A stretch of 64,000 bases of DNA from Clostridium sp. BNL1100 (GTDB lineage: Bacteria > Bacillota > Clostridia > Acetivibrionales > DSM-1351): assembly GCF_000244875.1 (NCBI RefSeq), contig NC_016791.1:2361001-2425000 (forward strand), read 5' to 3'. Shown piece by piece: positions 10,218-12,425 of this stretch. Numbering within the stretch: the first letter of the stretch is position 1; each line of letters opens with the position of its first letter. Under the pieces are notes generated by a model. It made no database searches. It saw nothing but the letters and a program-made list of their open reading frames with translations, and was not told the DNA's origin. Made by a program: the position numbers and the translations under genes.

Positions 10218-10257
10218 CGAACATGTGTTTGATTTATTGGATAAAATATGTTATACT
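10218..10257 (+). promoter_or_regulatory. SigA promoter overlapped by a LexA (SOS) box
   Basis: A -35 TTGATT (10229-10234) and a -10 TATACT (10252-10257) stand 17 bases apart. The 14-mer CGAACATGTGTTTG (10218-10231) fits every fixed position of the Gram-positive LexA/DinR consensus CGAACRNRYGTTYG and overlaps the -35 by three bases, the expected place for repression. It drives the radical SAM/DUF4130 pair. Confidence 0.75.
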
Positions 10258-10315
10258 ACTATCAAATAGATAAATCAGCTTGATTTTGAGTAAATTATTT
10301 ACGAGGAAAACATAT

Positions 10316-11701
10316 ATGGACTTGAATGAAAAATTAGGTATATTAGCAGATGCAGCAAAATATGACGTTTCATGCTCATCTAGCGGAGGGACAAGAAAAA
10401 ACAAAAATGGTGTAGGAGACAGTCATGCATGTGGAATCTGCCATACCTGGGCTGATGACGGTAGATGTGTTTCTCTGCTTAAAATTTTATTGTCAAATGA
10501 ATGTATATACGACTGCGTATACTGTATAAACAGGTCTTCAAATGACGTGCCCCGTGCGAGTTTTACGGCCGAGGAAGTTATTGAGCTTACCATGAATTTT
10601 TATAGAAGAAACTATATAGAAGGACTTTTCTTAAGCTCCGCTGTTTTAAAAAATCCAAGCCATACCATGGAATTAATGCTTGAAATCGTAAAAAAACTCC
10701 GTACTGAACATGGCTTTTTTGGTTATATACATATAAAAGCAATTCCCGGGGCTGATGAAAGGCTTATAAACGAAGCCGGAACGTACGTTGACAGAATGAG
10801 CGTAAACATTGAACTTCCATCTGACAAAGGCCTTGAAGTACTTGCTCCTCAAAAACCTAAAAAAGCTCTACTCAAACCCATGCATCAGATAAACAACAGA
10901 ATAATAGAAAACAAGGAAAATAAGCGATTATTTAAAAAGGGAGATTCTTTCGTACCCGCCGGACAAAGTACGCAGCTTATTGTAGGGGCAACACCCGATA
11001 AGGATTTAAGTATTTTAAAGCTCTCAGAAGCCTTGTACGGCAATTTTAATCTCAAGAGGGTTTATTACTCGGCATTTGTACCAACCGTAACAGATCCTAG
11101 GCTGCCGGCTCTTATCAAGCCTCCTCTACTACGTGAACACAGATTGTATCAGGCCGACTGGCTTTTGAGGTTTTACGGTTTTGAGGCTGATGAATTATTA
11201 AGCAAAACCAATCCCAATTTTGATCCTGAGCTTGATCCCAAAGCTGACTGGGCTATGAGAAATCTGCATTTGTTTCCGATAGAAGTAAATTCTGCAGAAT
11301 ATGAAATGCTTTTGAGAGTACCGGGAATAGGTGTTAAATCGGCACAAAGGATTATTACTGCAAGAAGGGTTGGCAGACTGACTTTTGACAACTTAAAAAA
11401 AATTGGAGTAGTCTTAAAACGTGCAGGCCACTTTTTAACCTGTCAGGGTAAAACATATGATAGTTACAGCTCAAATGAAGCTATTGTAAAAGAATCCTTG
11501 ATAAGTGCAAAACTTCAACCCAAAAGTAAAAAGTCTGTTTTAGGACAGATGTCATTATTCTCACTAGTAAATGATAGCGGAGCTGATGAAAACATCTCAG
11601 AGTTTCTTCTAACAGACTCTCCTTCAAATAACCGGCAATGGCTTAGTTTTTACAATCAACCACAAGACGGGAGGCTTTTGTTAAGTGATATACATTTATG
11701 A
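10316..11701 (+). CDS. Putative DNA modification/repair radical SAM protein
   Basis: A 461-residue member of the radical SAM family that protein databases call a putative DNA modification/repair enzyme (linked to the uracil-DNA glycosylase family). The radical SAM motif CIYDCVYC gives C63, C67 and C70. Four further Cys (about C20, C39, C42, C51, including CGIC) precede it and could hold a second Fe-S cluster. A helix-hairpin-helix, LLRVPGIGVKSAQRI, near residue 335-350 suggests DNA binding. An upstream TTG (10280) is open, but the ATG at 10316 has GAGG at good spacing. It overlaps the DUF4130 gene by 17 bases. The LexA box in its promoter supports a role in DNA damage. The chemical reaction is unknown. 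Confidence 0.85.
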   Translation: MDLNEKLGILADAAKYDVSCSSSGGTRKNKNGVGDSHACGICHTWADDGRCVSLLKILLSNECIYDCVYCINRSSNDVPRASFTAEEVIELTMNFYRRNYIEGLFLSSAVLKNPSHTMELMLEIVKKLRTEHGFFGYIHIKAIPGADERLINEAGTYVDRMSVNIELPSDKGLEVLAPQKPKKALLKPMHQINNRIIENKENKRLFKKGDSFVPAGQSTQLIVGATPDKDLSILKLSEALYGNFNLKRVYYSAFVPTVTDPRLPALIKPPLLREHRLYQADWLLRFYGFEADELLSKTNPNFDPELDPKADWAMRNLHLFPIEVNSAEYEMLLRVPGIGVKSAQRIITARRVGRLTFDNLKKIGVVLKRAGHFLTCQGKTYDSYSSNEAIVKESLISAKLQPKSKKSVLGQMSLFSLVNDSGADENISEFLLTDSPSNNRQWLSFYNQPQDGRLLLSDIHL

Positions 11702-12425
11702 CGGAACATGGGATTGCTTTTTGACAGCAATTCATCATTATTATTATGACAAACAGGATGTTTCAAAAATTGAATCGAGCCTTTGCTATATACCAAATCT
11801 TATTGACGAATACAGAACCATAACTACTGATATTATAAAGGCTAAGGCCGTAGAAGAAGCAATACTGCGCAAGATTTCAGCGGAAAGTCTTGAAAATCTT
11901 CAAAGATGTTTCTTTTCGGAGATCGAAGGGCGTGAAATGTGGATTTTAAAATATATTCGTCTTGGGTTTAAAATTGGTATACGCATAGACAGTATGCTTG
12001 GAGATAAAACCGTTTTAGATGTATTGATTCCTGCCAGAAAAGTAGGAATGGAGTGTCATAGAATGCTTGGACTGCTACGTTTCGAGCTTTTGGAAGGTGG
12101 CATTTATTATGCAAAAATCCAACCGGACCATAATATAATTTCTTTTATATCTCCTCACTTTAAGAACCGTTTTGCAGATCAGAACTGGATAATACATGAT
12201 ACAAAACGAAAAATTGCTTCTTTGTACAACACAAAAAAAATGCTTCTTTCCTATATGGATCTTTCCAATATCCCTGAACTTCATGCAGATGAACTCAAAT
12301 TCCAGGCTCTCTGGAAAAATTATTATAAGCATATAGCAATCAAGAATAAAATAAATCCAAAATTACAAAAGAATTTTATGCCTAAACGTTATTGGAAAAA
12401 CCTTACGGAGAAGAAACCTGATTAA
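11685..12425 (+). CDS. DUF4130 putative DNA metabolism protein
   Basis: A 246-residue protein of the DUF4130 family, the regular partner of the radical SAM gene just upstream; in other bacteria the domain also occurs fused to a uracil-DNA glycosylase-like domain. It starts with the family opening IYIYDGTWDCFLTA. The start is GTG inside the 3' end of the radical SAM gene, with GGGAGG upstream, so the two are translationally coupled. No glycosylase catalytic motif is visible in it, so it may be an accessory or substrate-recognition subunit. Function is unproven. Confidence 0.85.
   Translation: MIYIYDGTWDCFLTAIHHYYYDKQDVSKIESSLCYIPNLIDEYRTITTDIIKAKAVEEAILRKISAESLENLQRCFFSEIEGREMWILKYIRLGFKIGIRIDSMLGDKTVLDVLIPARKVGMECHRMLGLLRFELLEGGIYYAKIQPDHNIISFISPHFKNRFADQNWIIHDTKRKIASLYNTKKMLLSYMDLSNIPELHADELKFQALWKNYYKHIAIKNKINPKLQKNFMPKRYWKNLTEKKPD

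Follow-up and report, generated by a model that had tools for sequence, protein, structure and literature searches.

What would a radical S-adenosylmethionine (SAM) enzyme and its DUF4130 partner do for a cell with damaged DNA, and does the SOS response control them? The question is raised by a two-gene operon in a 64,000-nt stretch of Clostridium sp. BNL1100 (contig NC_016791.1, positions 2,361,001 to 2,425,000 of the forward strand; this whole stretch is called the window below). An earlier examination of the letters by themselves, referred to here as the sequence-only reading, had noticed a LexA box over the operon promoter. We find that the operon is very probably under LexA (SOS) control, a prediction that is well supported, and that the pair is likely to have a damage-induced role in DNA repair or damage processing.

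A LexA box overlaps the promoter of the operon

The promoter elements and the two genes lie at the following positions of the window:

10218..10231, + strand: LexA box CGAACATGTGTTTG, exact consensus, kept in 11/11 genomes of the genus and in 88/108 paired-type loci of the class
10229..10234, + strand: -35 hexamer TTGATT, with TTG common to the -35 and the LexA box
10252..10257, + strand: -10 hexamer TATACT, with TG directly before it and a spacing of 17 nt to the -35
10316..11701, + strand: radical SAM gene, TIGR03916, 461 aa, start ATG at 10316, stop TGA
11685..12425, + strand: DUF4130 partner gene, TIGR03915, GTG start, 246 aa, overlapping the radical SAM gene

The sequence-only reading had claimed that the 14-mer meets every defined position of the Gram-positive LexA consensus and that it overlaps the -35 of a TTGATT-N17-TATACT promoter, and both claims were borne out: CGAACATGTGTTTG agrees with all defined positions of CGAACRNRYGTTYG, and the box shares its TTG with a -35 at the expected 17-nt spacing. 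This is the single exact match to CGAACRNRYGTTYG in the window, and none of 100 shuffled windows contained a match. A promoter scan of the window gave 11 sites compared with 8.8 expected, which is not significant alone; the layout of box, -35 and -10 is identical in 10/11 genomes of the genus, and the box precedes the radical SAM gene in all 11. ATG 10316 is the most likely start of this gene, rather than TTG 10280, because GAGG precedes it. The genome also encodes LexA itself, a protein with LexA_DNA_bind and Peptidase_S24 domains whose gene is divergent from a LysM (YneA-like) gene, and a near-consensus box is located in the region between the two.

The box is conserved upstream of orthologous genes

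Conservation was assessed by the box core, GAAC-N4-GTTY on either strand within 300 nt upstream of the radical SAM gene. TIGR03916 was over its cut-off in 109/291 sampled genomes of the class and reached an E-value of 0.001 or better in 138; together with further genomes of the genus, the class sample yielded 116 distinct usable loci, 8 of them solo paralogues and 108 of paired type. The core was present in 91/116 loci, compared with a mean of 1.3 and a maximum of 6 in shuffled upstream regions, with 1/346 upstream regions of other open reading frames (ORFs) and with 21/1531 windows of 300 nt taken elsewhere in these loci. The full 14-mer was found with at most one mismatch in 85/116 loci and exactly in 46/116. 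For the paired-type loci the count was 88/108, spread over 33/40 families, and the number of families is the fairer figure, because the genomes are related and do not represent independent events. Thus, a box conserved upstream of orthologues, on which the sequence-only reading had staked its proposal, is indeed found.

In 95/108 paired-type loci, DUF4130 follows within 200 nt on the same strand. In 6 it is farther downstream, and in 7 the fetched stretch does not contain it; at L214, one of these 7, a divergent DUF4130 adjoins. Loci L027, L029, L030, L031, L032 and L173 were left out of the class test (late-starting alignment, split gene or contig edge), yet L027, L029, L030 and L031 have the box; the class matches in G273 (contig start) and G030 (split) and weak partial matches also stand outside the test. 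Two open frames at L031/L032 (G010, contig 21), matching profile positions 1-202 and 205-414, together make up a split radical SAM gene, and box and promoter pattern are kept there. Named clostridial or Bacillota-like loci were counted separately, with the core within 400 nt in 20/25; these include 4 duplicate genomes of the genus, and the short L099, L139 and L141 were left out.

Loss of LexA, box-less loci and genome-wide matches

If the box serves LexA, its absence may be expected to go with the absence of LexA, and this is observed. The LexA DNA-binding domain was absent in 6/20 box-less compared with 0/20 box-bearing genomes (Fisher p = 0.02), where the box-less set comprises all 20 paired-type misses and the box-bearing set 20 genomes chosen from the best-scoring of the 88. 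Among the genomes whose lexA loci were fetched, the core stands upstream of lexA in 15/17 box genomes and in 7/13 box-less genomes. Ahead of the radical SAM gene, four of these 7 box-less genomes (G013, G118, G131 and G148) carry CAAACATATGTTTG, a symmetrical variant, while lexA has the core; in G014, box-less and with the core at lexA, the upstream sequence covers only 240 nt.

Several observations weigh against LexA control. The core is missing from 20/108 paired-type loci, and in at least two of these genomes, G255 and G224, the radical SAM gene is box-less although lexA has the core. A LexA-like box is also found upstream of 3/8 solo paralogues (L215-L222). Moreover, the exact pattern occurs only twice in the whole 4.61-Mb genome, at the radical SAM operon and upstream of uvrA, compared with 4 matches for the backwards pattern, and one-mismatch sites number 23 compared with 63. 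Some of these one-mismatch sites lie upstream of recA, upstream of uvrB and in the divergent yneA-like/lexA region, and several further ones fall within ORFs. Since the pattern is not enriched genome-wide, an exact match alone proves little, and the genome-wide count was rejected as proof of LexA control for want of an excess over the backwards pattern. The evidential weight lies in the position and the conservation of the box, not in the pattern count.

Some near-consensus boxes in the window's own genome are recorded here as separate observations. One has a MutH-domain protein 122 nt downstream (L003, G000:C1:589080), another precedes a serine recombinase (L006, G000:C1:1368270), and a third precedes an HD-domain/GNAT fusion, YfbR-like (L017, G000:C1:3042507); the last two genes are possible further SOS genes.

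The same gene stands behind local LexA operators in other groups

The LexA motifs of Alphaproteobacteria and Bacteroidota that we used are given in PMC8565304. Among named relatives from these two groups, GTTC-N7-GTTC was found within 300 nt in 27/27 alphaproteobacterial loci (control windows 1/570), and CTAA-N5-TTAG in 19/20 Bacteroidota loci (control windows 12/419), the truncated Bacteroidota gene L137 being left out. Crossed-over operators were rare: in the Bacteroidota loci the alphaproteobacterial and the clostridial operators were found in 0/20 each and a loose gammaproteobacterial one in 2/20, and in the alphaproteobacterial loci the Bacteroidota operator was found in 0/27, the clostridial one in 1/27 and the loose gammaproteobacterial one in 0/27. 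The Bacteroidota loci are nearly all from Hymenobacter and the alphaproteobacterial ones mostly from Paracoccus, therefore these counts are not independent. Both protein families also have matches in Caulobacter vibrioides, which served as a control genome.

In Gammaproteobacteria the family is rare, being over the cut-off in 4/229 genomes. Exact CTGT-N8-ACAG was present in 2/5 gammaproteobacterial genomes (L236 and L239; control windows 0/71); L238, from the same genome as L133, has a near-miss, and the motif was not found at L237 or L101 (Acinetobacter). None of the operator motifs tested was found upstream of L108 (Pirellulaceae). The sequence evidence thus supports LexA control of the same gene in four groups, each through an operator of its own; the support is strong in three of them and covers 2/5 genomes in Gammaproteobacteria.

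In the Hymenobacter loci L069-L088 and L095, a distance of about 0.8-2.5 kb separates the radical SAM gene from the DUF4130 gene behind it, where the latter was found, and at L081 and L088 small ORFs or a hydrolase-like gene stand between the two; the operator check of these loci covered the radical SAM gene only.

A radical SAM barrel with a second conserved cysteine set

The radical SAM protein matches TIGR03916 over the full profile (1-415 of 415) with 649.5 bits against a cut-off of 343.5, and PF04055 with 31.7 bits against 29.5. We take COG4277 to be the helix-hairpin-helix (HHH) protein family that TIGR03916 describes. Within the gene the following elements were located:

10373..10468, + strand: N-terminal Cys20/Cys42-His43/Cys51 set, a probable second metal site, from conservation
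10502..10525, + strand: radical SAM motif Cys63-x3-Cys67-x2-Cys70 (CX3CX2C)
11279..11374, + strand: HHH DNA-binding motif, residues 322-353, from HHH_3 and the invariant PGxG

The sequence-only reading had described a radical SAM enzyme with an HHH and an extra N-terminal Cys cluster. The family assignment and the conservation of the Cys set stood; the HHH part needs qualifying, as HHH_3 scored 24.5 bits, short of its cut-off of 27, while P336, G337 and G339 of PGxG are invariant in 194/194 sequences (a set with at least 4 duplicates from genomes present twice). Sequence and structure model together support a barrel of the LipA/HydE/BioB type with a C-terminal HHH DNA-binding motif; LipA, HydE, MqnE, BioB and others are among the structural matches listed for the model.

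In sequences with DUF4130 in the locus, Cys20 is kept in 174/176, Cys42, His43 and Cys51 in 175/176, and the Cys63/Cys67/Cys70 motif in 175/176; the latter is also kept in 18/18 sequences without DUF4130. The N-terminal CCHC set is lost in the 8 solo paralogues, L215-L222, a solo branch of TIGR03916-like proteins that score 307-325 bits (8/8 under the cut-off), and 7 of their genomes are without DUF4130. A complete CCHC set was found only in proteins whose genomes, where searched, have DUF4130. We suggest that this set is probably a second, metal-binding site. The low confidence of the structure model in the N-terminal Cys region counts against it, and the site was therefore deduced from conservation.

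Two known enzymes invite comparison. Lipoyl synthases (LipA/LIAS) carry an N-terminal auxiliary cluster with the motif CX4CX5C; this motif is absent from the window's protein, which differs from them in Cys spacing (C20-x21-C42-x8-C51), in the added HHH motif and in its partner. SplB is likewise a radical SAM DNA-repair enzyme and, as noted in PMC8565304, is SOS-regulated in several species, but the window's protein differs from it by the HHH motif and the N-terminal CCHC set. Spore photoproduct lyase (SPL) profiles gave no match at E 0.001 in scans of the window's proteins, and SPL is not among the structural matches listed for the model, a listing that does not exclude it.

The DUF4130 partner as a predicted degenerate DHH module

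The coupled DUF4130 partner claimed by the sequence-only reading is present as the overlapping second gene, with 262.5 bits to TIGR03915 (cut-off 112.25) and 180.1 bits to PF13566 (DUF4130; cut-off 27). The window's pair is thus far over both curated cut-offs and shows only normal divergence from the TIGR03916/TIGR03915 pair, and these families are curated, as had been stated, only as putative DNA modification/repair proteins.

The structure model of DUF4130 (mean predicted local distance difference test score 95.8) has PAP phosphatase, PggH and RecJ-type enzymes as its top structural matches. Across 110 DUF4130 sequences, the catalytic Asp/His motifs including DHH are not conserved: within residues 1-122, conservation of an Asp or His nowhere reaches 90%, and the strictly conserved residues sit in the C-terminal half. 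Of the DHH motifs only a motif-I-like skeleton D-G-xxx-G remains (D 94/110, G 80/110, G 99/110). A degenerate DHH (RecJ/Cdc45-like) fold is a tentative prediction from the model.

This prediction has to be set against some adverse results. The best Foldseek E-value for DUF4130 was 1.2e-3, with unrelated proteins from rank 5, and the window's protein has Cys11 at the second glycine of the motif-I skeleton. Sequence support was found neither by structure-profile search nor by Pfam scan nor by hhalign: the DUF4130 profile gave 6 matches to solved structures, all S100 proteins (best E 0.13), which we took as chance; a Pfam scan of the 110 members listed 25 of 49 families, and a DHH family is not among these 25; and hhalign of DUF4130 against 10 NrnA-like proteins gave a probability below 1% in both directions (20 NrnA-type regions were taken, and the 10 that passed a crude motif filter were used). 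A small hhalign segment on the DHH-motif stretch of NrnA agrees with the fold result; it is not significant and was not used as proof. Thus, DUF4130 differs from the DHH/DHHA1 family (RecJ, NrnA, PAP phosphatase, Cdc45) in having neither conserved catalytic motifs nor detected sequence similarity.

At L225 and L226 (G200 and G156), DUF4130 stands apart from the radical SAM gene, directly behind genes resembling those for O6-methylguanine-DNA methyltransferase (MGMT) and Hsp33, and no LexA box was found at this separate location. The two identities come from inspection of the letters in a single genus; the neighbourhood is a possible hint at alkylation damage.

UdgX fused to DUF4130 in other phyla

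Among loci L101-L142, 27 partner frames reach at least 400 aa, and all of them have UdgX-type motifs behind DUF4130; 25 are from Alphaproteobacteria, one is from Pirellulaceae and one from Caenimonas (G296), a genome that presumably belongs to Gammaproteobacteria in GTDB. Of the 27, 24 have GEQPG or GEAPG and 26 an HPSxxLR-type motif; every one has the loop His, in the context KRRIH, KRRLH or RRRLH in 21 and KxRLH in 6. The three frames scanned (L108, L110 and L133) were over the TIGR03914 (UdgX) cut-off. The 25 alphaproteobacterial fusions are operons under the alphaproteobacterial operator; an exact operator is absent at the UdgX fusions L108 and L133. By its motifs, then, the uracil-DNA glycosylase (UDG) that is fused in these alphaproteobacterial partners under SOS control belongs to the cross-linking UdgX type.

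Because a UdgX domain is fused to DUF4130 in other phyla, pyrimidine-derived (uracil/abasic) sites are suggested as at least one target. What speaks against carrying this over to the window is that its DUF4130 protein, unlike the 27 fused partners, is without a UdgX domain (profile scan with TIGR03914); two UDG proteins were matched in the window's own genome, both under the TIGR03914 cut-off. Since the window's system lacks UdgX, its core activity would be independent of UdgX. The precise physiological role of UdgX is described as largely unknown in PMC10359453, and the fusion with DUF4130 offers a possible setting for it; the UdgX papers checked make no mention of SOS, fusion or operon.

Relation to previous reports

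SOS control of the radical SAM/DUF4130 pair is not new and is already in print. For C. acetobutylicum, a 2013 report lists CAC3343-CAC3344 as an operon for which a LexA site is predicted and whose expression points to LexA control, the first gene being annotated the same as the window's radical SAM gene (PMC3828012). The two operons are alike in the predicted promoter LexA site; the organism is another one. To that report the present analysis adds the promoter layout, the class-wide count, the other operators and the LexA-loss control. A COG1573-COG4277 operon of Bacteroidetes is predicted under both LexA motifs in a passage of PMC8565304, which cites earlier reports from Verrucomicrobia and Alphaproteobacteria; this too is a two-gene SOS operon, with a partner named there as uracil-DNA glycosylase, whereas the window's DUF4130 is without a UDG domain.

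Other papers touch on the pair. One of them (PMC3765255) predicts DUF4130 to be an enzyme related to mutagenesis and links it to SplB-like radical SAM proteins and to UDGs; it is the one paper found in the literature to name TIGR03916, TIGR03915, DUF4130, PF13566 or rSAM_link_UDG. 'A radical SAM protein', unspecified, is placed in the Gram-positive core SOS regulon in a LexA comparison (PMC7739468), and a DNA affinity purification sequencing (DAP-seq) study of C. thermocellum LexA lists two regulon 'DNA repair proteins' (PMC8457756). The word 'radical' is absent from the C. difficile LexA paper (PMC4234289), as are 'radical', 'uracil' and 'glycosylase' from the main text of a 2025 Caulobacter SOS paper (PMC12700426). 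In our literature search none of the papers listed names both UdgX and radical SAM, and none of the DHH/RecJ/Cdc45 papers listed was found to name DUF4130. Three points were not found in print: the tie of the CCHC site to DUF4130 and its loss in solo paralogues, the predicted degenerate DHH fold of DUF4130, and the UdgX type of the UDG fused in SOS-controlled alphaproteobacterial partners.

A model for the pair and its alternatives

The overall account that we consider probable is a LexA-repressed SOS operon whose radical SAM enzyme and DUF4130 adaptor act on a damaged nucleotide. LexA on the box over the -35 would block transcription of the operon, and DNA damage would activate RecA and lead to LexA self-cleavage and operon expression; both steps are well supported by the sequence. 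The radical SAM barrel would bring a C-terminal HHH and an N-terminal CCHC site that probably binds metal, an arrangement supported by conservation and the model. DUF4130 may be a DHH/DHHA1-like module whose catalytic site has degenerated, much as Cdc45 is a dead relative of RecJ. It may bind a DNA end or a flipped nucleotide and hand it over to the radical SAM enzyme, and the latter may use the 5'-deoxyadenosyl radical to repair or modify the damaged nucleotide directly. The sequence-only reading had held that SOS control would be direct evidence of damage-induced repair or modification: LexA control is supported by the conserved box, the other operators and the loss of LexA, while lesion and reaction are not thereby shown. 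That the pair repairs a pyrimidine or abasic lesion directly by radical chemistry is a tentative and rather doubtful proposal. Quite unlikely, in our estimate, is a more specific one, which sees in the pair the partner that UdgX-type uracil capture has been missing: a dead RecJ/NrnA-like DUF4130 would grip a site that is abasic or derived from uracil, on this site the radical SAM enzyme would carry out a direct, oxygen-independent reaction with the help of a second N-terminal metal cluster that occurs together with DUF4130 only, and UdgX-fused forms would resolve or use the covalent UdgX-DNA adduct. If true, the proposal would add a new kind of DNA repair that is induced by damage and that several phyla have placed under LexA by way of different operators.

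It is scarcely credible that the box matches by chance or that it belongs to the divergent ACT-domain/DUF711-like genes. The missing genome-wide enrichment and a good reverse-strand promoter, TTGATA-N17-TATAAT, adjoining the box would fit such a reading, but the box recurs upstream of the radical SAM gene across 33/40 families and other LexA operators take over in other phyla. Assignment of the box to the divergent neighbours was rejected, as within the fetched stretch these are common to 7/88 box loci, all in the genus. An active DHH-fold phosphoesterase or nuclease, trimming the DNA ends that the radical SAM enzyme produces, is suggested for DUF4130 by its phosphatase- and RecJ-type structural matches; we consider it very unlikely, because the N-terminal half holds no Asp or His conserved to the 90% level and the conserved residues are C-terminal.

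A real possibility, though we lean the other way, is that the N-terminal CCHC binds zinc and only holds the DUF4130 interface, with no auxiliary iron-sulphur cluster. C-C-H-C is a common zinc pattern, and presence of the set tracks the DUF4130 partner; however, VIA alignments to lipoyl synthases, for which end points alone are given, start at model residues 1-7, and the divergent relative L214 weakly matches LipS1/LipS2 profiles. LexA control may also be real and the pair a damage-tolerance or mutagenesis factor, for example producing a modified or bypassable base or working together with error-prone polymerases, instead of a direct repair system. In favour of this, a gene-neighbourhood study regards DUF4130 as mutagenesis-related and possibly modifying thymines (PMC3765255), and PMC8565304 calls error-prone polymerases the conserved SOS core. 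However, no error-prone polymerase was recognised by eye among the flanking ORFs of nine loci, and the UdgX fusion points to a lesion, not to a template change, so that we hold a tolerance role to be fairly unlikely.

Under the account that we prefer, a LexA-repressed pair acting on damaged nucleotides, SOS control across four groups, each with a LexA operator of its own, implies that cells need the pair when DNA is damaged. LexA control thereby turns the annotation "putative DNA repair" into a testable prediction, and the link between CCHC and DUF4130, together with the predicted DHH-like fold, offers specific residues and an architecture as targets for tests. Should the pair repair an abasic or pyrimidine lesion directly by a radical mechanism, this would be a new repair chemistry beside that of spore photoproduct lyase.

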